A stretch of 64,000 bases of DNA from Fibrobacteria bacterium (GCA_025360005.1 JANYDA010000049.1:186001-250000); one strand, 5' to 3'. Counted from the stretch's first letter, positions 9,810-42,684 are shown. Notes: generated by a model from the letters alone, not told the origin. A program made the numbers and translations.

Positions 9810-11739
9810 GCTCCGCCTCGCGGGTGGGGGCCTGTCTCTGGCGGGGGCGCTGCTTACGGCGGGCTGCGCCCACATGGAAGCGCCTCCCGGCGGCCCGGCG
9901 GACAGCAAGCGGCCCTACGTAACCGCCGTGTTTCCCGCCCCGGATACCGTCAACGCGCCCCTGGATCTGAACGCGCAAATCGCCTTCTCGGAATGGGTGT
10001 CGCCGGACGCGGAGCGCGGCAAGGTATATATCAATCCGCCTCTGCCCCATAAGCTCAAGGTCAAACTCTCCGGCAATCTCCTTAAGGCGGGAAGTTCCTC
10101 CCGGCTGGATTCGAACACCACTTACACCCTGGGCGTTCTGGCCACCATCAAGGATCTGAACGGGCTGCCGTTGGAAAGCCCCGTGCAGGTTTCCTTCGCG
10201 ACCGGAGCCAAACTCGATTCCGGGCGGTTGCGGGGACGGGAAGGGGTGTTCCAGGGCAAGCCTGCGGCCGGGGCCTTCGCCGCGCTCTACCCGCGGGGGA
10301 CGGAATTGCGGGCGCGCTTCCGCCATCTCACCCTCCGCAACGACAGCGCCGTAACGCCCTCGGCGCAACCGGATCCGCTCAAGGAACGCCCCGCTTACAT
10401 AGCGCCCGCCGATTCGCAAGGCCGCTTTGAATTCAAGGCCGTGCGGCCCGGACGTTACGGGCTGATGGGGTTCCAGGACATCAATGGGGACCTTACCCCC
10501 AACGTGGGATCGGAGGCTGTGGCCATCGGCCCATCCGTCGACATCTCCGCCTTGGCCGGGGATCCGCAAAGCCTTACCCTGGCGCCTTATGACACCGTTC
10601 CCGTGCGTCTGGCGGAGGCGCGCTGGGTAGGCGAAAGCATGCGCAACAAGCTGGCCTACGGCACCGTCCGCCTCAAGTTCAACCGCCCGCCCCATCCCAC
10701 CTTGTGCCTGCGGCGAGAGGCCTATGCGGTGAAGCGCTTGGGTCCCAAGGGCGCTCCGCAAAGCGGCGCCCCCGTGCTGGTGCAGGACGTTTGCGTCAAT
10801 CCCAACAGCGGGGAAGTGGAGCTCATGACCGTGCCTTTGGATCCCGACAGCCAATACGTGGTTTCCTGCCCGGGCCTGCGCGATCTCTACGGTAACCTGG
10901 CCGATACCTTGCGCAACCGGGCGACGTTCCGGGTGGGAAGCGACCTGGATACCGCCAAGCCGGATCTGGCCTTCCTGGGGCCGCGCAGGGTTTCCGGGGA
11001 GGTGGCGCGCCTGACGGCGGACAACCTGATGCCATCGCAAGGCATCTCCGTCTATTATCCCCGTCTGCTTTCCGATTCCACCTTGAATTGGTTGCGCGCG
11101 AACCTGATCGTGAGGCTGGATACCGCGCCCGCCGCCTGGTCCCTGGCGCGCCTCAGCCACCATGAATTCTCCCTGCAAGTGGCCATGGCCGCTGCCCTGA
11201 AAGGCCAAAAGCTGAGCCTGGCCTGGAAGGGATTGGACAATGCGCCCGCCAAGCCCGCGGCCGGAAAGGATTCCTCCGCTCCGGCCGGGAAGATTGCCGC
11301 GCCGCCCCAGCCGCCGCCAACGCAACCCATCATCACCTTTACCCTGGCCGATGCCGCCAAACTGGGGTCCGTCAAATTCCGGCAGGCTGCTTCCGCTTTC
11401 GGTTCCCGCCTGGTCCTCCGCAGCACCGCTTCCGCCTGGGAATACAGCCGCGTGACGCCGGCTAAGGAAGAGGTGACGATCGACAGCGTCCCCGAAGGCA
11501 ATTACACGGTGGATTATTTCCGGGACTCCAATGGCGACGGGCTTTGGCACCCCGGCAGCCTGGCGCCTTGGGCCGTGCAGGAACCTTATTTCCAATTCGC
11601 CGATTCCGTGGACGTCAAAGCGGGCGGCGTGAACCGCGGCGACGGCAATAAAAAGCGCCCGACGAACCCGGCGCTTCCCGGAGCCGTGGACTCGGTTTCC
11701 ACCGTTGAACGCAGGCTTTCCTGGCCCCCCGGGGGCTGA
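9790..11739 (+). CDS. Lipoprotein with bacterial Ig-like (Big_5/SbsA-type) domain
   Basis: Starts with TTG inside the end of lepB (a second TTG at 9802 is also possible). The first 25 residues are a lipoprotein signal with lipobox LTAGC. Residues 35-135 look like a Big_5/SbsA Ig-like domain: VFPAPDTVNAPLDLNAQIAFSEWV, ending VQVSFATG. The middle has a beta-rich carboxypeptidase-regulatory-like part with GRYGLMGFQDINGDLTPNVGS, and a related YTVDYFRDSNGDGLWHPG segment occurs near residue 575. These D-x-N-G-D segments could bind calcium. It is probably an envelope structural or assembly lipoprotein. Translational coupling to lepB is suggested by the overlap. Confidence 0.75.
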   Translation: MESSLTRLRLAGGGLSLAGALLTAGCAHMEAPPGGPADSKRPYVTAVFPAPDTVNAPLDLNAQIAFSEWVSPDAERGKVYINPPLPHKLKVKLSGNLLKAGSSSRLDSNTTYTLGVLATIKDLNGLPLESPVQVSFATGAKLDSGRLRGREGVFQGKPAAGAFAALYPRGTELRARFRHLTLRNDSAVTPSAQPDPLKERPAYIAPADSQGRFEFKAVRPGRYGLMGFQDINGDLTPNVGSEAVAIGPSVDISALAGDPQSLTLAPYDTVPVRLAEARWVGESMRNKLAYGTVRLKFNRPPHPTLCLRREAYAVKRLGPKGAPQSGAPVLVQDVCVNPNSGEVELMTVPLDPDSQYVVSCPGLRDLYGNLADTLRNRATFRVGSDLDTAKPDLAFLGPRRVSGEVARLTADNLMPSQGISVYYPRLLSDSTLNWLRANLIVRLDTAPAAWSLARLSHHEFSLQVAMAAALKGQKLSLAWKGLDNAPAKPAAGKDSSAPAGKIAAPPQPPPTQPIITFTLADAAKLGSVKFRQAASAFGSRLVLRSTASAWEYSRVTPAKEEVTIDSVPEGNYTVDYFRDSNGDGLWHPGSLAPWAVQEPYFQFADSVDVKAGGVNRGDGNKKRPTNPALPGAVDSVSTVERRLSWPPGG

Positions 11740-11852
11740 ACCGGCCGCAGCCATGGGAGCGCCCGCCGTGCGGATTGGCATCGGTTAATCCGGTCACCGT
11801 TGTCCGCCGCTTGGGCGAAAACCCCCGAAAAATCTACCTTTGCCTCGGTATC

Positions 11853-12356
11853 ATGGATGACTTTGTGCCCATCGCCTCCAGTGCGGAACGGACTTCGCTC
11901 GAGCCGCTTGAAAAGTATTTGAGCCATCATGGCATCCTTTGCCGGGTAGGCCAGGACGATCGCAATGGCGGGAAGTTCCTTTTGCTGGTATCCCCGTCGG
12001 CCCTCAACCAGGCCCAACGCGTGCTGGACGATATCGCTTATACCAGCATCGATCCGCATAACGCCGAGGAGGCCCTGGAGATCAACTTCGACGGCACCGA
12101 ACGCATCGAGGTGGCCACTTGGTTGCAAGTTCTGTTGGACGAGCAAGACCACGAAGGATCGCCGGTGTTTTTCTTCCGCGCCGAATACGAAGCCATCCTG
12201 GACGAATTGCACGCCTCCGGCAAAGTGGAGATCCCCTTGTATATCCTGAAGGGCTTGAACGCCTTCATCCCCGCAGGGCCCAAGCGGATGATGATGGGGA
12301 GCGGCCTGCAGGAGTTCTTCGCCCTCATCGAGGCCGTGGCCAGGGGAGAGGTTTAG
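11853..12356 (+). CDS. Hypothetical cytoplasmic protein
   Basis: About 167 residues from the chosen ATG (MDDFVPIASS); the open frame continues upstream without a convincing start. The first 65 residues (AERTSLEPLEKYLSHHGI... KFLLLVSPSALNQAQRVLDDI) resemble the small DUF2007-type 'putative signal transducing protein' fold, in which a short sequence acts as an alternating alpha/beta unit. That match is by eye only. The stop is 4 bases before the start of the Ser/Thr kinase gene, so the two are likely co-transcribed, and a role tied to the kinase is possible. Confidence 0.6.
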   Translation: MDDFVPIASSAERTSLEPLEKYLSHHGILCRVGQDDRNGGKFLLLVSPSALNQAQRVLDDIAYTSIDPHNAEEALEINFDGTERIEVATWLQVLLDEQDHEGSPVFFFRAEYEAILDELHASGKVEIPLYILKGLNAFIPAGPKRMMMGSGLQEFFALIEAVARGEV

Positions 12357-12360
12357 CGGC

Positions 12361-13992
12361 ATGCTGCTTTCCGAGGCCACCGATACCCGCTACGATATCG
12401 TAAAAATCCTGGGGCAAGGAGCCTCCGCCACCGTGTACCTGGCGCGGCACATCGCCCTGGGGGAATTGCGGGTGCTCAAGATCCTGCATCACGACATGAT
12501 GTTGGACGCCAAGCGCCGCAGCAAATTCAAGATGGAAGCCCAGGTGTCCGCGCATCTCAAGCATCCCGCCATCGTACAGGTCTTCGACGTGACCCAGACC
12601 GCCTCCAAGCTCCAGATCGAAATGGAATACATAGACGGCATGAGCCTGCGCCAGTACCTGGAGAAGCGCAAGAGCTTTCCGCTCTCGGTGACAATCGCCA
12701 TCATCCAGGCCGTGCTGGAAGGGATGGAGCACGCCCACCGGGCCCGCCTCACCTTCGGGGAAACGGCGCTGGACGGCGTCATCCATCGCGATCTCAAACC
12801 CGAGAACATCATGGTGCGCAAGAACGGCCAACCCGTGATCTGCGACTTCGGCGTGGCCAAGGTGGGCGCGGACCTGATGACGCAGACGCAGCATATCAGC
12901 GGCAGCGTGGCCTATATGGCGCCGGAGCGCCTGCGCGGGGAGCTGAGTACGCGCAGCATCGATGTGTTCTCGCTGGGAGTGATGTTCTTCGAGTTGCACA
13001 AGGGCTACCGGCCTTTTACCGGCAACAACAAGACCCAGGTGCTGGAAAACATCCTGCGCTGGAACATCGTTGATCTGGACCATGAATGGCGCGGCAGCGA
13101 TGGGGCGGTGCTGCAGATAGTACGCAAGGCGCTGGCCCGCGAGCCGGGCTCCCGTTACCAGGATGCCTCGCAGATGCTGAGCGCGCTGCGCCCCATTTAC
13201 AAGCTATACCACGGGGACGCGCCTCCCGCCGCCGTGCTCCAGGATTATCTGACCCGGGGCCAATTCACCACCGCGGAATTCCGGGCTTTGATGCCGGAGG
13301 AAACCCCCTGGCGGAGCCGCATCGCCAAGGCCGTGGGCGCGCTCGCCCTGGCGGGCGCAGCCTGGTTCGCCTACCAGGCCTTGCACGCCGGCAAATCGGC
13401 CCCCGCCAAACCCGGCTCGGCCAACTCCGTTCCCGGACCGCAGGGTAACACCAGCGTCACTCCCCCCGGGGCAGCGGCCTTGCAGCCGCCGTTGGCGGTT
13501 CCCCTTGCGGCTAAAGCCGGCTTGGAAGCGGAAAGGGCCGCCCGCGCCAGCAGCACTTCGGAAGCGGAGCGCAAGGTCAAAGCGCTGCCCGCCAGGGATC
13601 AACAGCGCGGCTATTATTCCCTGGCCAAGGCCAGCCTGCGCGAAAAGAAGGATCCCGGCAACGCGTTGCTGCTGGTCAACAAGGCCCTGGATTATTCCTT
13701 CCATCCCACCATCGCCCTGCTCAAGGTCGAGATCCTCCAGGACCAGGAAATGTTCAATCTCTCGGAGACGGAACTGGCCCGCATCCAACCCTGGCTGAAG
13801 AAGATGACGCGGGAAAACCAGGCGCAATACCACTGGCTGGCTGCGCAGCAGCAAATCCGCCGCGGCGGCCAGGCCAGCGCGGCCGGGCGCATGCACATCA
13901 AGATCGCTCTCAAGCAGTACCTGGCTCTCAAACCCAAGGGAGCGGACGAAAACCTGAAACAGGCGCAACAACTCCTCCGTTCCCTGAAATGA
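12361..13992 (+). CDS. Membrane-anchored Hanks-type Ser/Thr protein kinase
   Basis: N-terminal kinase domain, residues 11-280: glycine loop LGQGASATV, ATP-binding K40, catalytic loop HRDLKPEN with D144, and DFG at 162-164. A transmembrane helix lies at about 320-340 (VGALALAGAAWFAYQAL). The following part is Pro/Ala-rich, then helical with TPR-like repeats (about 390-543: YYSLAKASLREKKDPGNALLLVNKAL), facing outside. All catalytic residues are present, so it should be active. The extracellular repeat domain replaces the PASTA domains of PknB-type kinases. It lies 4 bases after the preceding gene. Confidence 0.9.
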   Translation: MLLSEATDTRYDIVKILGQGASATVYLARHIALGELRVLKILHHDMMLDAKRRSKFKMEAQVSAHLKHPAIVQVFDVTQTASKLQIEMEYIDGMSLRQYLEKRKSFPLSVTIAIIQAVLEGMEHAHRARLTFGETALDGVIHRDLKPENIMVRKNGQPVICDFGVAKVGADLMTQTQHISGSVAYMAPERLRGELSTRSIDVFSLGVMFFELHKGYRPFTGNNKTQVLENILRWNIVDLDHEWRGSDGAVLQIVRKALAREPGSRYQDASQMLSALRPIYKLYHGDAPPAAVLQDYLTRGQFTTAEFRALMPEETPWRSRIAKAVGALALAGAAWFAYQALHAGKSAPAKPGSANSVPGPQGNTSVTPPGAAALQPPLAVPLAAKAGLEAERAARASSTSEAERKVKALPARDQQRGYYSLAKASLREKKDPGNALLLVNKALDYSFHPTIALLKVEILQDQEMFNLSETELARIQPWLKKMTRENQAQYHWLAAQQQIRRGGQASAAGRMHIKIALKQYLALKPKGADENLKQAQQLLRSLK

Positions 13993-35270: not shown

Positions 35271-36104
35271 ATGCAAAAAGCTAAAAAGGGCGCCAGGGAA
35301 AAAATGGCGGCTCCGATCCATGGGAATATGGATCGGATGATCTTGGAGAATCTTCCCATTCTCCCCCGCTCCATGACATTTTCCAAGATGCTCGAGATGG
35401 ACAAAGCTTCCGCATCCTTGCGGAACAAGTGGCCTTGGTTCTTCCCCCCGCTCTGCGCCAGAAAAAACCAGGCGACGCTGTCGGACGTCGAGAAGGCGCG
35501 CTACATCTGCGCTTTCAATATGATTAACAACGACGGCACGCTCGGCCATCTCGTCGACCTGCATGCGGGCGCTTACGGACAGCACGGCAACCTCCTGCTG
35601 CTTCCCTGGCACCGCATGTTTCTGCTGCTGTTTGAAGCGGCCTTGCACAATTACCATCCCGACGTATGCATCCCCTATTGGGATTGGAACGAGGAGCAGT
35701 ATTTTCCCGACTGGCTCGCGGGCATCCTGCCGACCGTGCACACGCCCACTCGGACCATAAACGTCATCCGCAGTCCCGGCATGGGAAGCTGGCTGGCCGG
35801 GACCGTCTCGGGAACGCCTTCCGCGCTGGCGCAAACCAACTACAACAGCTTTTCCGGACCCATCAACGGCATCCACGGCGGGGTCCATATGTGGGTAGGC
35901 GGAACCATGAGCGACGCGGGCGTATCGCCCGCCGATCCGGTGTTCTGGCTCCATCACGCCAATCTGGACAGGTTATGGTGGCAATGGTACAACAGCCCCG
36001 CAGGCGGCCATCAGAATCCCATTATCGCGGGCCAGATCCTGCCATGGACTTATACCGAGCCAGATACCAGAAACATTATCTCCTTAGGCTATAAATACGT
36101 CTGA
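35271..36104 (+). CDS. Tyrosinase (type 3 copper phenol oxidase)
   Basis: Oxidises phenols to o-quinones with a dicopper centre. 277 residues. CuA ligands: H93 or H98, H105 (GQHGNLLLL) and H114 (PWHRMF). CuB ligands: H202 and H206 (GIHGGVHMWVGG) and H228/H229 (FWLHHANLDRLW). All six His positions are filled, so it should bind copper. It begins with a basic segment without a signal peptide, so cytoplasmic or unusually released. No caddie (MelC1-like) metallochaperone is adjacent. First gene of the cluster, followed 83 bases later by the multicopper oxidase. Confidence 0.9.
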   Translation: MQKAKKGAREKMAAPIHGNMDRMILENLPILPRSMTFSKMLEMDKASASLRNKWPWFFPPLCARKNQATLSDVEKARYICAFNMINNDGTLGHLVDLHAGAYGQHGNLLLLPWHRMFLLLFEAALHNYHPDVCIPYWDWNEEQYFPDWLAGILPTVHTPTRTINVIRSPGMGSWLAGTVSGTPSALAQTNYNSFSGPINGIHGGVHMWVGGTMSDAGVSPADPVFWLHHANLDRLWWQWYNSPAGGHQNPIIAGQILPWTYTEPDTRNIISLGYKYV

Positions 36105-36128
36105 GGGATGGAGGGATGGACGGATGGA
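36105..36128. repeat. Three tandem 8-base copies, GGGATGGA/CGGATGGA
   Basis: Starts directly after the tyrosinase stop. The unit GGGATGGA occurs twice and CGGATGGA once. The tract is short and its length could vary between strains. The effect on the gap to the multicopper oxidase start is unknown. Confidence 0.7.
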
Positions 36129-36187
36129 TTCCCGTGGTCGAGTAGTCGAAAACATCAAACACATTTTCCAAAGTAAAGGGTAAAGCA

Positions 36188-38179
36188 ATGGCAGAGATTT
36201 GGGTCCAACTGGAAAACCGTCCCTGGGACACCATGCCCAACAATATCGATCGCATGACCAACAGGAAGGCCGTGGACATAACCACCAAGGCATCGGAAAT
36301 CGTCACCGTCACCTCCCCCGACGCCGCGGGAACCGGCATCAGGGTAAGCCATACCCGGCGGATGTACGCGCCCTTGCGGGATAGCGCCGGAAAGGTGATG
36401 GACGCGCTTATTTACCGCCGCTACAAAGCCCCAGATCCCGCCGCGGGAATCGCGGAGTGGCAAGTGCCAGACGACCGGAAAATAAACCCTTGGGACATCA
36501 ACGAAAAAGATCCCACCGACTCGGGCACCATGGGCACCATTCCCGGCCCCGTGATCGAATGCAATGTGGGAGAGGAAATCAAGGTGCATTTCCGCAACCT
36601 CGACATGCGCCTCACCAAACCGGCCAAGGCCAGGGCCCACAGCTTGCATGTGCACGGCTTCGTATTCAAGCAGGAGCATGACGGCGCGTATCCGCTTTCC
36701 AACGCCGACTCCACGCAGCGCGTGGACGGAACCACGCCCGTCGCCGGGCAAATCGCCGCGCCGGACGAAACCGCGCTCTGGAACGCCGTTGCCCCCGGCA
36801 CCGGCGCCACTTTCGGCACTCTCAAAAAAGGCGATCGCGTCCCTCCGGGAGGCACCTTCGTATACAATTGGACGACCCAGGGCTGGCCCAGCACCGCCGG
36901 CGTGTGGCTCTATCATGATCATTCTTTCTGCGACGATAAGAACATGGGCCTGGGCGCCATCGGCATGGTGGTGATCCATAATCCCTCCGACACGGACAAT
37001 GATTTCACCGTTTCCAACGCGGACTTTCCGGCCGGCAGCCCCACGGGAAACCCCTTGGATATCAATTGTCATCCATTCCCGTTCGAGATGCTGGTCGATC
37101 CGGGCATCCTTCAAAAGGTGGGCGTGGTGGATCCGCATCTGCTGGATCTCATCAACCCCGGCGGACCGCATGAAATGGATATGCACGCGGCGGCGCACGC
37201 GACCAAAGCGACCGCCAAGCACGCTGCGGCCGAGGCTGCCAAGAATACCGAGAAAATTTTCAAGCCCGATCTACAAAGGGTCATCCAGGAAAATAATGTT
37301 CTCTTCCATCTGAATCCGGATTTCACCGCCATCAGGGGATTGTGCACCACCACCTACAAAGCGCCGCCGGCGCACGCCATGTATCTCCAGCTGTTCCACA
37401 AGCTGACCAGTTCCCCCGGCATGAACATCAACGGCAGGACCTACCTTGGCAATACGCCCTCCGTGGTGGCGGGCACGGCAACAAAAATGCGCTTCGGCGT
37501 GGTAGGCATGGGCCAAAGCGGCGATGTGCATACCTTCCATATCCATGGCCATCGTTGGACCGTGCCGGGGCCCGACGGCAATACGCCTACGGCGATCCAG
37601 GGCAGCGCCCAGGTCAAGTCCGTCTCCCAATTCGAAGACACCCGGATTTTTGGACCGGCCAATTCATTCGGCTTCACCATCAATGGGGCGGTGGGAAGCT
37701 TCATGCGGGCCGGGGGCAAATCGCCGGGAGACTCCAAAGGCGAATGGCATATGCATTGCCATTTCCTGGACCATATGATGAGCGGCATGATGGGCTCTCT
37801 CCTAATCGTGGACGGAGGCCAGCAAGCCATCTTCCCGGCGGGAGAGGTATGCCCTGAGGAGGATGTGATCCCGGCCGCCACCATCATCGTAAAGAACTTC
37901 GAATTTTCTCCGAAGGACATTTCCGTCCCCAGCGGGACGGTGGTGACTTTCAATTTCATCGATACTTTTCATTCCGCCACCACGGTGACCAAAACGGGGA
38001 GCATCAACAGGGTGGAGGTGAACGGGGGTCCGGGCGGCAACCTGGCCGCCAATTCCGGGACACCCGTTCCGGTGGGCGTACGGACACTAACGGTGACGGG
38101 TAACATGGGTGACCGGGTCGATTTCCAATGCGGGATACATGGAGCGTCGATGCCCGGCTCCATCACCATCTCCATGTAG
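36188..38179 (+). CDS. Multicopper oxidase with an added C-terminal cupredoxin domain
   Basis: 663 residues. The laccase-type copper sites are present: HSLHVHG (151-156), WLYHDHS (243-245), HTFHIHGH (448-455) and WHMHCHFLDHM (521-530; type 1 Cys 524). After the standard end, about residue 550, there is an extra domain: IIVKNFEFSPKDISVPSGTVVTFNF, FHSATTV and FQCGIHGASMPGSI, a plastocyanin-like type 1 copper site with His, Cys, His and Met. This could feed electrons from or to the laccase core. There is no signal peptide. It should oxidise phenols or metals with reduction of oxygen to water. Confidence 0.92.
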   Translation: MAEIWVQLENRPWDTMPNNIDRMTNRKAVDITTKASEIVTVTSPDAAGTGIRVSHTRRMYAPLRDSAGKVMDALIYRRYKAPDPAAGIAEWQVPDDRKINPWDINEKDPTDSGTMGTIPGPVIECNVGEEIKVHFRNLDMRLTKPAKARAHSLHVHGFVFKQEHDGAYPLSNADSTQRVDGTTPVAGQIAAPDETALWNAVAPGTGATFGTLKKGDRVPPGGTFVYNWTTQGWPSTAGVWLYHDHSFCDDKNMGLGAIGMVVIHNPSDTDNDFTVSNADFPAGSPTGNPLDINCHPFPFEMLVDPGILQKVGVVDPHLLDLINPGGPHEMDMHAAAHATKATAKHAAAEAAKNTEKIFKPDLQRVIQENNVLFHLNPDFTAIRGLCTTTYKAPPAHAMYLQLFHKLTSSPGMNINGRTYLGNTPSVVAGTATKMRFGVVGMGQSGDVHTFHIHGHRWTVPGPDGNTPTAIQGSAQVKSVSQFEDTRIFGPANSFGFTINGAVGSFMRAGGKSPGDSKGEWHMHCHFLDHMMSGMMGSLLIVDGGQQAIFPAGEVCPEEDVIPAATIIVKNFEFSPKDISVPSGTVVTFNFIDTFHSATTVTKTGSINRVEVNGGPGGNLAANSGTPVPVGVRTLTVTGNMGDRVDFQCGIHGASMPGSITISM

Positions 38180-38200
38180 CTACCCATCCCTGTTGAACTT

Positions 38201-38230
38201 GGGGCCGTCCCGCCTTTTCGGGACGGCCCC
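38201..38230 (+). terminator. Perfect 12-bp hairpin between the multicopper oxidase and copper-radical oxidase genes
   Basis: GGGGCCGTCCCG, loop CCTTTT, then CGGGACGGCCCC. There is no T-run after it, so it may slow transcription or protect the upstream message rather than stop transcription fully. The next gene starts 36 bases downstream with its own GAGGG ribosome-binding sequence. Confidence 0.6.
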
Positions 38231-38265
38231 TCATCCGCTTCCACTTAATCGCGAGGGATAAAGAA

Positions 38266-40002
38266 ATGAAAGAATCGGTAGGCAAGATCAAGGACATCGG
38301 TCCCGCTCACCACAGGCGCATCCTTAAATTCATCAACGATGCCGGCAGCCCGTTCGATCTGATGCGCATGCCGGCGCGTCCGGTCTCCGCGGAGCAGATG
38401 GCCATGGGCGGCAAGGATGCCGGAATGGATAAGCCCGTTCAGCTGATGGATGCCAAGTCCGCGAAGGCTTTATTTGCGCTCCGGGAGCTACGATTCCCCA
38501 TGGGGTTCACCAACATCGAGCAATTCAACCGGGCCGTGAACATCAACATCCGGAAATTGCTCGATCTTTTGAGCGACGCCATGTTCGGCAGTTGGCAAAC
38601 CTTGCCTTACACCATTCCCCGGCAAGGCGGAGGAAGCGTCAGCATCGTCCATGCGGCCTTGCTTCACACGGGAAAGGTGCTGTTCCTAGATGACGGCCCC
38701 ACTCCCATCTGGGATCCGAACGACGAGGTGAATCCGCAGTTCGAATTTCCGGCCACAAACCCCGCCTATTCCCTGACCTGCAGCGGGCATAGCTTCTTGT
38801 CCAACGGAAGCCTGCTTGTCGTGGGCGGCGGCGGCTTCGGCCCGGTGGCGGGCGCCAACAAGGGTTTTAAGTTCGATCCCGTCGCCAAAACATGGGCCAA
38901 GACCGCCGGCGATATGAACAAGGTGAGATGGTACCCGACGGCCGTAACGACCGGGGACGGGCGCATGCTCGCCGTAGGCGGTTGGAACCAGAGCGGAGTC
39001 CTGCAGGATGATATCGAAGTGTACGATGAGGCTTCCGACTCCTTCACCACCATCACCGGCGCGACTTTGGGTTTCCCCAATCTCTATCCCGGCCTCCACC
39101 TGCTTCCCAACAACGTGCTCTTCTACACCCGGACCGGCTGGGGCCATGCGGGTGGCTCGCCTCCCAGCTCCAACGACGGGTCCGCCTACCTCCATTTCAC
39201 CAGCCCCACCTCCGGAAGCTGGAATGCCATAGCCCCTTCGGCCATCAACCGCAGCAAGGGGATGTCGGTACCCATCTACCGGAATACCTGCCCGCATACC
39301 AGGATCCTGGTGGTGGGCGGATGCGACGCATCAGGATCCGGGATAAATTCCGCCGCGGAAATCATCGACGCTTCGTTCCTGTCTCCGGCAAGCGCATGGT
39401 CGTTCACGGCGCCCTTGTCGGACCCCAGTTTGCGCAGACAATGCAATGCCGTCCTGCTTCCCGACAATACGGTCTTCGTGGCCGGAGGAGTCACCTCGCC
39501 CGGATCCCCATGCATGCTTTTCGATCCCGTGTCGAATACCTGGTCTCCGATGGCCGACCTGCCTTCGGCCAGGATGTACCACTCCGTGATGATCCTGCTT
39601 CCCAACGGAAAAGTCATGATGTCCGGATGGGCCAACGACGCTCCCAGCGGAACCATCGAGCTGTATAGCCCGCCCTACCTGTTCAAAGGGCCCCGACCGG
39701 TCATTTCCGGCGCGCCGGCTTCGGTAGGATTCGGAAGCCAGTTCACCATCGCCACCCCCGACGCCACCACGATTACTCGGGTAACCCTGGTCAAGCCGAT
39801 GGCCGTCACGCATCAAACCGAAACCAACCAGCGGGTGATCGAATTGACGTTCCTTCACGATCATGTGCACCCGAATAATCTGATCGCCACCGCTCCCGAT
39901 GGAGGAAGCCCCCATGCCTTCGCGCCCAGCGGGTACTACATGCTCTTTATCCTCAACGGAAACGGCGTTCCATCGGTAGCGAAATGGATTTGGCTGAATT
40001 AG
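38266..40002 (+). CDS. Copper-radical oxidase (glyoxal/galactose oxidase-like, AA5-type)
   Basis: 578 residues. A kelch-type propeller with VVGGGG, AVGGW and VVGGC blades is followed by a DUF1929-type C-terminal domain (about 470-578). The copper-radical residues known in galactose/glyoxal oxidases are all at the expected motifs: C172 (CSGHSF) for the thioether, Y223 (RWYPTAV) as the radical Tyr, Y438 and H439 (RMYHSVM), and H516 (AVTHQTETNQR). RWYP is closer to glyoxal oxidase than to galactose oxidase. Expected product: an aldehyde or acid plus hydrogen peroxide. No signal peptide; a leading helical segment precedes the propeller. Confidence 0.9.
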   Translation: MKESVGKIKDIGPAHHRRILKFINDAGSPFDLMRMPARPVSAEQMAMGGKDAGMDKPVQLMDAKSAKALFALRELRFPMGFTNIEQFNRAVNINIRKLLDLLSDAMFGSWQTLPYTIPRQGGGSVSIVHAALLHTGKVLFLDDGPTPIWDPNDEVNPQFEFPATNPAYSLTCSGHSFLSNGSLLVVGGGGFGPVAGANKGFKFDPVAKTWAKTAGDMNKVRWYPTAVTTGDGRMLAVGGWNQSGVLQDDIEVYDEASDSFTTITGATLGFPNLYPGLHLLPNNVLFYTRTGWGHAGGSPPSSNDGSAYLHFTSPTSGSWNAIAPSAINRSKGMSVPIYRNTCPHTRILVVGGCDASGSGINSAAEIIDASFLSPASAWSFTAPLSDPSLRRQCNAVLLPDNTVFVAGGVTSPGSPCMLFDPVSNTWSPMADLPSARMYHSVMILLPNGKVMMSGWANDAPSGTIELYSPPYLFKGPRPVISGAPASVGFGSQFTIATPDATTITRVTLVKPMAVTHQTETNQRVIELTFLHDHVHPNNLIATAPDGGSPHAFAPSGYYMLFILNGNGVPSVAKWIWLN

Positions 40003-40043
40003 ACGGACCAACCCTGCAACCCAACAACACCTAGGAAAAATCC

Positions 40044-41564
40044 ATGACCGCAATTGCTTCCTTTAAAATCCATCCTGCCATCGGCATCGCGCGTCTGGGC
40101 AACAGCCCGGACGGGTATTTTATCGGTCCGGAAATACCCGGCGCGAATGCACCTCCTTCCGGCGGATACAAGGATTCGCAAATGAAGGTGAAGCGGCAGG
40201 CCGCGCGATTCAGGATCTTCGCTTATGATGCGGACGGAAAGGTCGTAAAGGAGATCACCGCCGCGGATGCGGAAATCGAGTGGACCGTGCAGCTGGCCAA
40301 CAAGAAAGCCGGTTGGAAAAAATTCGCCGGGTTGAAAACGGATGCGGGATTGAGGAATGCTTCCGAGAAAAACCGGAGCCAATTGATCATAGACCCGGGC
40401 GAGCGGACCCTGGGCGGGATAAATTCCTCGGCACACTTCGATACCGGCAGCTTTTATGCGGAGACGGTTCCCTTGGGGGAAATGAGAACGGATAAAGACG
40501 GCCGCATGATTGTGCTGGGCGGATTCGGCCATTCCGCCTCGCCGCATAACAAGAAGCTCACCGAGTTCGCCAACAATGACGGCTGGCATGACGATGTGTC
40601 GGATGGACCGGTCAAAGCCTCCGTGAAACTGAAAGGCGCAGCCAAAAGCCTGAATGCATCGCCCGCTTGGGTAATTTGCGCCCCGCCCGATTTCGCGCCC
40701 TCTTTGACCAACGTGATCAACCTGCATGACGCCTTGTTGCAGGCCGCTATCGACAGGCTGGGCGAAAAGATCCCCGACATCCCATCTTTTACCCGGGACA
40801 TATACCCCATCCTCAGCAGGGCGAACAATATGAAATGGGTTAGCATGATGATGTGGAAAATGCATCATGCGCAGGGAGGGAAACCCAAGTCTCTGGAAAG
40901 CAAGCACAAGGACATGGAAGAAAGCATGCCTCTCGTATCGAATGACGCATTGAGGAAAAAAGTATTCGCGAAGCTTACCGATCCAAATGACCCCTTGGGC
41001 GGGGAAGACAACGATATGCCCATGCTCTGGAGCGATCATTACCAGGATCAAAAAAAGAAAAACGGAGAGCCGAGGAACGAAACGCTTTGCAAATGGCAAT
41101 ATGACTATCTGCAAAAGTGGGCGGCGGGAAATTTCATAAAGGATTGGTCGGGGTTGCCGGCGCCGTCCGGAATCATCCATCCGCAAGGGCTCGATAAGGC
41201 GGCTTTGGAAAACTGCATCGGGGGCCCTTTTTTTCCGGGTATCGAAGCCAGCTGGCTCCTCAGGGATCATTTCGGATTCATGGAACCGTTCCGCCTGTCC
41301 CATGCCATCCTTGCGGCGGGAGACGTCACCAAGCAGATGGCCCTGCCTTGGCAGGCCGACTTCTACGACTGCCAACAAGAGGACGCGCTCGCCTGGTGGC
41401 CGGCCCAGCGACCCGACGATATCTTTACCGACGACTCTCCCGAGATGCACAAGTGGACGCGCTGGCACGTTACCGATTTCCAATCCATGGTCGAGAAATG
41501 GCATCACTTGGGGTTCGTGATCAAAAAGGGGGAAAGGTATTTGGAATCGGAGAGAAACCCTTAA
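40044..41564 (+). CDS. lodA: LodA-type cysteine-tryptophylquinone (CTQ) amino acid oxidase
   Basis: 506 residues of the LodA/GoxA family, which oxidise an amino group (lysine epsilon or glycine) to aldehyde or keto product with release of ammonia and hydrogen peroxide. The opening SFKIHPAIGIARLGNSPDGYFIGPE is characteristic. The quinone is built from a Cys and a Trp: C391 in ENCIGGPFFPGIE and W436 in LPWQADFYDC. Both are present. Substrate specificity cannot be read from sequence; both lysine and glycine oxidases exist in the family. No signal peptide. It lies 4 bases before the lodB-like gene. Confidence 0.88.
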   Translation: MTAIASFKIHPAIGIARLGNSPDGYFIGPEIPGANAPPSGGYKDSQMKVKRQAARFRIFAYDADGKVVKEITAADAEIEWTVQLANKKAGWKKFAGLKTDAGLRNASEKNRSQLIIDPGERTLGGINSSAHFDTGSFYAETVPLGEMRTDKDGRMIVLGGFGHSASPHNKKLTEFANNDGWHDDVSDGPVKASVKLKGAAKSLNASPAWVICAPPDFAPSLTNVINLHDALLQAAIDRLGEKIPDIPSFTRDIYPILSRANNMKWVSMMMWKMHHAQGGKPKSLESKHKDMEESMPLVSNDALRKKVFAKLTDPNDPLGGEDNDMPMLWSDHYQDQKKKNGEPRNETLCKWQYDYLQKWAAGNFIKDWSGLPAPSGIIHPQGLDKAALENCIGGPFFPGIEASWLLRDHFGFMEPFRLSHAILAAGDVTKQMALPWQADFYDCQQEDALAWWPAQRPDDIFTDDSPEMHKWTRWHVTDFQSMVEKWHHLGFVIKKGERYLESERNP

Positions 41565-41568
41565 CGCG

Positions 41569-42684
41569 GTGTTGAAGGTCCACGATGGGAAAACCGTGAA
41601 GCGGGTTGATATAGCCATAGCGGGCGGTGGCCCGGCGGGCGCCTCGGCCGCGATTTCCCTATCACAAAAAGGCTACTCCGTGGCCGTGATGGAAAAAAGC
41701 CGCTTCGAGAACATCCGTTATGGCGAAACGCTGGCGCCCAAAATCCGCCATTTGCTGATGGACCTGGGCATTTGGAAACGGTTTCTGGATGACAACCACC
41801 TTAAATCGAACGGCATCCAATCGGCATGGGGGCGGGAGGAATTATTCGAGAACGACTTCCTCCTTAATCCTTACGGGAACGGTTGGAATTTGGATCGTGT
41901 CCGGTTCGATGCCATGTTGCTGGATGAAGCCCAAAAGAAGGGCGCGCTGGTGTTTCGCGGGGCCGCCTGGGAGGAATGCTCCCAGAGCGGCGCGGGAGAG
42001 TGGAACATCGCCATCCAATGCGATGGCGCGCAGCACCGATTCCAATCCCGTTTTCTCATTGATGCGACCGGACGATCTTCTTCCATCGCCAAGAGCATGG
42101 GCGCGAGGCGGATTCATTGCGACCAGTTGATCGGCGTGGCGGCGTTCTTTCCCACTCCCGGCGGAACGACTTCGCATACAGGATATACGCTCATCGAATC
42201 CGAGGAAAACGGTTGGTGGTATTCGGCGGAATTGCCTCAAAGCGAAACCGTTGCCGTATTCATGACGGACGGGGATTTATACGCCGGTTCAAAAAAGCGT
42301 TCGCCCGGATTCTGGAGGGAGAGGCTCGCTTCCTCCGTCTTTACGAAAAACCGCTTCGAGCTTCCAAAAATGACCGCAAATCCGCGCGCCGTTGCGGCGA
42401 ACACTTCCATAATCCACCCGGTGGCGGGCGCGGATTGGTTAGCGGTGGGTGATGCCGCGCTTTCCCTCGATCCGCTTTCCTCCCAGGGAATTTATAAGTC
42501 GATGGAATCCGGAATCAATGCCGCAAAATCCGTCGATGGAAAATTCCGCGGTACTGGCGGAGCGCTGCGCGGGTACTCGGATTCCATCGCCGCAGCGTTC
42601 AAAAGTTATCTGAATGTGCGGCGGTCCCATTATAAAAAAGTCAACCGATGGCCGGAATCGGCTTTCTGGAGAAGAAGATCCTGA
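41569..42684 (+). CDS. lodB: LodB-type flavoprotein for CTQ maturation
   Basis: 371 residues, GTG start (TTG three bases on is the alternative). It has an FAD-binding Rossmann motif at residues 14-29 (IAIAGGGPAGASAA), a GETLAPKIRHLLMDLG segment and the second FAD motif near 290 (VGDAALSLDPLSSQGI), as in tryptophan-halogenase-like monooxygenases. In characterised systems the LodB/GoxB partner is needed to make the quinone in LodA/GoxA. Direct adjacency to lodA supports that role. Codon usage is less GC-rich than in many neighbours. Confidence 0.88.
   Translation: MLKVHDGKTVKRVDIAIAGGGPAGASAAISLSQKGYSVAVMEKSRFENIRYGETLAPKIRHLLMDLGIWKRFLDDNHLKSNGIQSAWGREELFENDFLLNPYGNGWNLDRVRFDAMLLDEAQKKGALVFRGAAWEECSQSGAGEWNIAIQCDGAQHRFQSRFLIDATGRSSSIAKSMGARRIHCDQLIGVAAFFPTPGGTTSHTGYTLIESEENGWWYSAELPQSETVAVFMTDGDLYAGSKKRSPGFWRERLASSVFTKNRFELPKMTANPRAVAANTSIIHPVAGADWLAVGDAALSLDPLSSQGIYKSMESGINAAKSVDGKFRGTGGALRGYSDSIAAAFKSYLNVRRSHYKKVNRWPESAFWRRRS

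Follow-up and report, generated by a model that had tools for sequence, protein, structure and literature searches.

The stretch of DNA analysed here, referred to as the window, spans 64,000 nucleotides of a Fibrobacteria bacterium genome (GCA_025360005.1, JANYDA010000049.1:186001-250000). At positions 35271-42684 it carries genes for a tyrosinase, a multicopper oxidase (MCO), a copper-radical oxidase (GLX), a LodA-family oxidase and a LodB-type protein, all on the plus strand and separated by intergenic gaps of 83, 86, 41 and 4 bp. The initial annotation of this DNA had described five neighbouring genes on one strand with short gaps and retained cofactor residues, and both points are borne out, as alignments and motif reading place metal or cofactor residues in all four oxidases. 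Its description as a cluster of oxidases holds for those four proteins and not for LodB, a flavin maturase and therefore a helper. The locus thus comprises four chemically different oxidases, all of them O2-using, plus one helper enzyme. Since all five proteins score below the NCBIfam equivalog cut-offs, their substrates cannot be read from the family names.

The tyrosinase gene (35271-36104, plus strand) has an AGGAG 5' of its ATG start and encodes a type-3 dicopper protein of 277 amino acids that scores 114 bits with PF00264. The copper-binding histidines are all kept, with H93, H105 and H114 at CuA and H202, H206 and H229 at CuB, which places the protein in the family, and its relatives of solved structure are tyrosinases and hemocyanins. 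Residue 103 is a glycine, leaving the protein without the fungal thioether motif Cys-x-His. Consequently, where three products had been listed as of kinds known in other organisms to use a protein-derived cofactor or crosslink, two are expected to carry one here and the tyrosinase is not. The MCO gene (36188-38179, plus strand) encodes 663 amino acids with Cu-oxidase_2/3 domains (PF07731/PF07732) and a C-terminal cupredoxin. Its copper motifs are kept, four out of four (HxH at 154/156, HxH at 243/245, HxxHxH at 448-453 and HCHxxxHxxxxM from 523, the T1 cysteine included). The additional cupredoxin has its own CGIHGASM motif (648-655), in common with a relative from Thermoanaerobaculia, and the Variovorax and Sorangium proteins have a similar CxIHGxSM motif at a different place. 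Identity to the Thermoanaerobaculia MCO is about 50-55% (55% over 659 residues), the relatives of solved structure are two-domain laccases and ceruloplasmin, and a search for the MCO in 348 Hyphomicrobiales genomes returned weak fragments only.

The third gene (38266-40002, plus strand) encodes GLX, a 578 amino acid, AA5-like copper-radical oxidase of the GlxA/galactose oxidase type (NF052501, 1.9e-62; PDB 4unm, E 6e-49), whose relatives of solved structure are Streptomyces GlxA and galactose oxidase. The cofactor pair C172-Y223, the second tyrosine Y438 and the histidine ligands H439 and H516 are those of the AA5 family, and the GO-like_E_set domain scores 76 bits. With the GlxA model the protein reaches 211 bits against an equivalog cut-off of 800, and it is presented here as a relative of GlxA, not as GlxA itself. 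A scan of the genome collection with the GLX protein alone gave no match. Distant GLX-like proteins (about 35%) are encoded elsewhere in the genomes of three congeners, which means that the genus is not entirely without this family.

LodA (40044-41564, plus strand) is a compact, 506 amino acid form of the LodA/GoxA-family oxidases, which use a cysteine tryptophylquinone (CTQ) cofactor. Its scores for LodA_N (PF17990, 252 bits) and LodA_C (PF18417, 95 bits) both exceed the Pfam cut-offs, and its relatives of solved structure are Marinomonas LodA and GoxA (PDB 2ymw, E 3e-38). The catalytic aspartate D439 and the CTQ residues C443 and W452 are invariant in the alignment and match 2ymw, and the spacing of nine residues between C443 and W452 is the same in the nearest relatives. 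Scores of 213 and 313 bits against the lysine and glycine oxidase equivalogs, with cut-offs of 600 and 750, mean that neither specificity would be assigned from these models. An AlphaFold model of LodA, built from 10 sequences, was discarded with a pLDDT of 49. An antisense ORF of 539 amino acids over LodA (39999-41618, minus strand), also open in relatives, is a shadow of the LodA codons and was not accepted as a gene. LodB (41569-42684, plus strand, GTG start) is a 371 amino acid flavoprotein maturase of the LodB/GoxB type (NF038171, 6.6e-86, 289 bits; NF038174, 7.3e-74, 249 bits), and its position 4 bp downstream gives lodA the adjoining maturase gene expected of the LodA/GoxA family.

A perfect 12-bp GC inverted repeat lies just past the MCO stop in the gap between MCO and GLX (38201-38230, plus strand), and RNA folding of this 86-nt gap gave -37.5 kcal/mol with a z of -4.6. 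No T-run follows the hairpin, which may mark a site of processing or attenuation; because so strong a structure separates MCO from GLX, a single uninterrupted transcript across the block is not a given. The promoter scan found no sigma-70 site in front of the block, with fewer matches than in shuffles. Neither an evident signal peptide nor the hydrophobic N-terminus of the Tat-bearing GoxA proteins is present on any of the five proteins, and the block holds no candidate substrate protein.

The surroundings of the block are those of a flagellar locus. Five of five congeners share the order of an unassigned gene, a small ORF, aspartokinase, a cNMP/DUF4388 gene, flgJ, flgN and flgK, and in each of them the interval between the cNMP/DUF4388 gene and flgJ is an empty site of 235-505 bp, exactly where the window has its five genes. 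DNA similarity to the closest congener (L189) ends at about 35076 and restarts at about 42757, defining an acquired segment of about 7.7 kb with approximate limits of 35077 and 42756. At third codon positions the five genes have a GC of 0.65-0.75, compared with 0.80-0.85 in flgJ, flgN, flgK and the cNMP gene, and LodA was not found in the 167 other genomes of the phylum that were searched. Judged by these comparisons, the block is a single horizontal gain at an otherwise conserved locus.

Relatives were sought by scanning 85,000 species genomes with the LodA alignment. The closest LodA proteins (50-55%) came from Variovorax sp. YR216 and from Verrucomicrobia, Thermoanaerobaculia, Sorangium and Acidobacteriaceae MAGs. 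The Variovorax YR216 locus has MCO, GLX and LodA as domains of one open frame of 1497 amino acids, followed by LodB. A second Variovorax genome (G1333) has a fusion of the same three enzymes, 1507 amino acids long and 92% identical to that of YR216, again with LodB behind it, and here a tyrosinase lies directly upstream, so that the five activities occur in the order seen in the window. The Sorangium MAG has an MCO-GLX frame that runs off one contig and a GLX-LodA-LodB arrangement that begins another. The Thermoanaerobaculia locus contains MCO, tyrosinase-vWA, LodA and LodB, the Acidobacteriaceae locus contains MCO, LodA and LodB, and the Verrucomicrobia locus has no partner oxidase nearby on a contig that stops just past LodB. 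No sixth protein common to the related loci was found, from which it follows that the five genes are the whole set.

A LodA tree of 105 rows placed the window inside a clade of nine (SH-aLRT 97). By our own profiles, an MCO and/or GLX lies within 8 kb at six of the nine clade loci and at none of the 96 others, for which the Fisher p of 5e-8 is only a guide, as the neighbour profiles were seeded from the window's clade, which favours finding it, and the rows are related. Pfam recovered one MCO outside the clade that the profiles had missed, at a Nitrosomonas locus (L069), making the count 1/96. Another member of the clade, from an Acidobacteria MAG (L027, 239-6337), lies in a run of genes for a DyP peroxidase, a ferritin-like protein, LodA and LodB. 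Twenty Xanthobacteraceae loci were mostly Tat-bearing GoxA-like proteins without copper oxidases; in two of them (L229, 6730-12057; L230, 6964-12193) LodA and LodB are immediately preceded by a tyrosinase. These are other LodA proteins, not among the rows of the tree, so tyrosinase is paired with LodA beyond the window's clade too.

Fusions of LodA to other domains are frequent elsewhere as well. In a Planctomycetota MAG (L018, 6638-11563) a single 1641 amino acid protein joins a ferritin-like domain and a glucose/sorbosone dehydrogenase domain to LodA, with LodB following, a Variovorax locus (L175, 7954-11550) has a LodA-vWA fusion, and LodA of an Acidobacteriota locus (L152, 8584-13068) is fused to a haem-oxygenase-like iron enzyme. 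A plasmid of Variovorax WDL1 (L003, 5004-11767) carries side by side a tyrosinase that has FG-GAP repeats, a TPQ-family copper amine oxidase and a GLX, without LodA, and there is also a copy on another replicon of the strain (H39). The GLX is 48% identical to that of the window. With a different quinone amine oxidase in the position of LodA, the amine-oxidase step seems to be replaceable. The Sinorhizobium meliloti plasmid pRRI128_2 (L004, about 10186-12600), where LodA is broken into several frames and an intact GLX lies about 8 kb off, had been considered as a related set on account of LodA and GLX within 10 kb, and was set aside when its supposed tyrosinase and MCO turned out to be a protease-like protein and an unknown one.

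The initial annotation had taken scattering of the genes among relatives as the pattern that would speak against its proposal. What was found is gain in one block, a Variovorax locus that repeats the set in its order, and fusion of three of the enzymes, and the five genes very probably form one functional module; chance adjacency was rejected on the grounds of the fusion and the conserved order. As MCO, GLX and LodA are one polypeptide in two Variovorax genomes, three active sites act there in one place and in a fixed ratio. The coupling of the oxidases is well supported, and the identity of their product is what we infer from family chemistry. LodA and GoxA oxidise amino-acid amines and galactose-oxidase types oxidise primary alcohols, both releasing H2O2; tyrosinases and laccase-type MCOs oxidise phenols, and LodB is needed for CTQ formation. 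By analogy, LodB would install CTQ in LodA, which would act on a primary amine or an amino acid, yielding an imine or an aldehyde and releasing H2O2. GLX would convert a primary alcohol to an aldehyde, likewise with H2O2, and tyrosinase and MCO would produce quinones or radicals from phenols. The aldehydes, quinones and radicals, along with the peroxide, might then meet and react to give cross-linked material. Because aldehydes, quinones and amines that form side by side react with one another, the most likely output would be a cross-linked (tanned, melanin-like) protein or polymer, comparable to quinone tanning combined with lysyl-oxidase chemistry.

The best explanation, with a probability of roughly 0.45, is thus a self-contained, horizontally moved oxidase module whose products are aldehydes, quinones and H2O2 and whose role is most likely in cross-linking or tanning; that cross-linking is its purpose is a more tentative assignment. 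Counting against this explanation are the lack of a candidate substrate protein in the block, the strong hairpin between MCO and GLX and the position of all five proteins below the characterised equivalogs. An extracellular matrix or wall as the site of action fits poorly with the missing signal peptides, a counterpoint being Marinomonas, where LodA is reported to be secreted and LodB to stay inside (PMC2855505). The same feature weakens a lignin-related or other extracellular role. A bolder and doubtful form of the cross-linking explanation casts the set as a mobile assembly line whose oxidases would work in a single, physically coupled complex, as a fusion in Variovorax and as separate proteins here. 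Its four chemistries (dicopper, multicopper, copper-radical and tryptophylquinone) would together introduce aldehyde and quinone cross-links into one common substrate, either intracellularly or following non-classical export.

The fusion would also be explained by a single small molecule bearing phenol, primary alcohol and amine groups that passes through one oxidation sequence, either in natural-product tailoring or in the breakdown of a plant- or lignin-derived compound. The Variovorax WDL1 variant adjoins a polyketide synthase and a Bradyrhizobium LodA adjoins a radical SAM protein and a halogenase, which favours such a pathway; however, no synthase, transporter, transferase or catabolic gene occurs in the block or is common to the related loci, and we consider this explanation unlikely. 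Somewhat less probable still is that LodA and GLX serve as a peroxide source for antagonism or biofilm differentiation, with tyrosinase and MCO only handling phenols or protecting the producer. LodA/AlpP-type proteins owe an antimicrobial action to H2O2 and influence how biofilms differentiate, in Caulobacter and Chromobacterium too (PMC4417212, PMC4699246), but the MCO would reduce O2 to water and the tyrosinase would give no net H2O2, leaving their retention and fusion unexplained, and the want of an evident signal peptide also speaks against a peroxide source. Passive accretion, in which unrelated oxidases that share no function collected where the genome tolerates insertions, is very improbable: tyrosinase lies near LodA with other partners in several distant lineages, so that local shuffling is common, but the same order in another phylum, a fusion conserved in two genomes, a clean single gain and a clade-restricted linkage to MCO or GLX all argue against it.

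The proposed module also bears on LodA-like proteins more widely, as peroxide and biofilm effects are the only physiological hints for many of them. No cluster of this kind had been described according to the initial annotation, which needs correction for its core: operons with tyrosinase, MCO, lodA and lodB were published in 2015 (PMC4417212). The claim stands for the copper-radical oxidase and the fusion, as no paper joining a galactose oxidase with LodA, or reporting the fusion, was found among open-licence full texts. Together, the fusion and the transferable five-gene set are a concrete, expressible unit with which to probe the partnership noted in 2015, and the fusion would offer biocatalysis and biomaterials a one-polypeptide catalyst with three oxidase chemistries.

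Among known systems, Streptomyces GlxA is the closest characterised relative of GLX. In the published account (PMC3543389) its gene is linked to cslA, which encodes a glycan synthase, and to a gene for an endoglucanase; no link of GlxA/CslA to LodA, MCO or tyrosinase was found, unlike for the GLX of this block. Marinomonas mediterranea has the same kinds of oxidase as the window minus GLX, with LodAB, laccase and tyrosinase reported to be co-regulated from separate loci (PMC4417212). Its genes lie far apart in the genome, its LodA has 726 amino acids compared with 506 here, and no copper-radical oxidase is reported there. The lodA group ID operons of Bradyrhizobium japonicum USDA6 and others contain tyrosinase, MCO, LodA-like and LodB-like genes, for which Campillo-Brocal et al. 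(2015) suggested a joint function (PMC4417212). The likeness, drawn from the published description, lies in tyrosinase and MCO genes that accompany lodA in an operon, as the window genes, adjacent on one strand, would do if they are co-transcribed. Group ID differs in having a gene of 138-142 amino acids between lodA and lodB, except in Saccharophagus (PMC4417212), where the window has only 4 bp, and no copper-radical oxidase or fusion is reported for it, whereas the window adds GLX. The Variovorax fusion loci (L014 and L174) keep the order MCO, GLX, LodA and LodB seen here, with the tyrosinase too in L174. Their LodA is 53-54% identical to that of the window, whereas identity drops to 22-34% in the MCO and GLX domains, and the three enzymes that share one polypeptide in Variovorax are separate proteins in the window.
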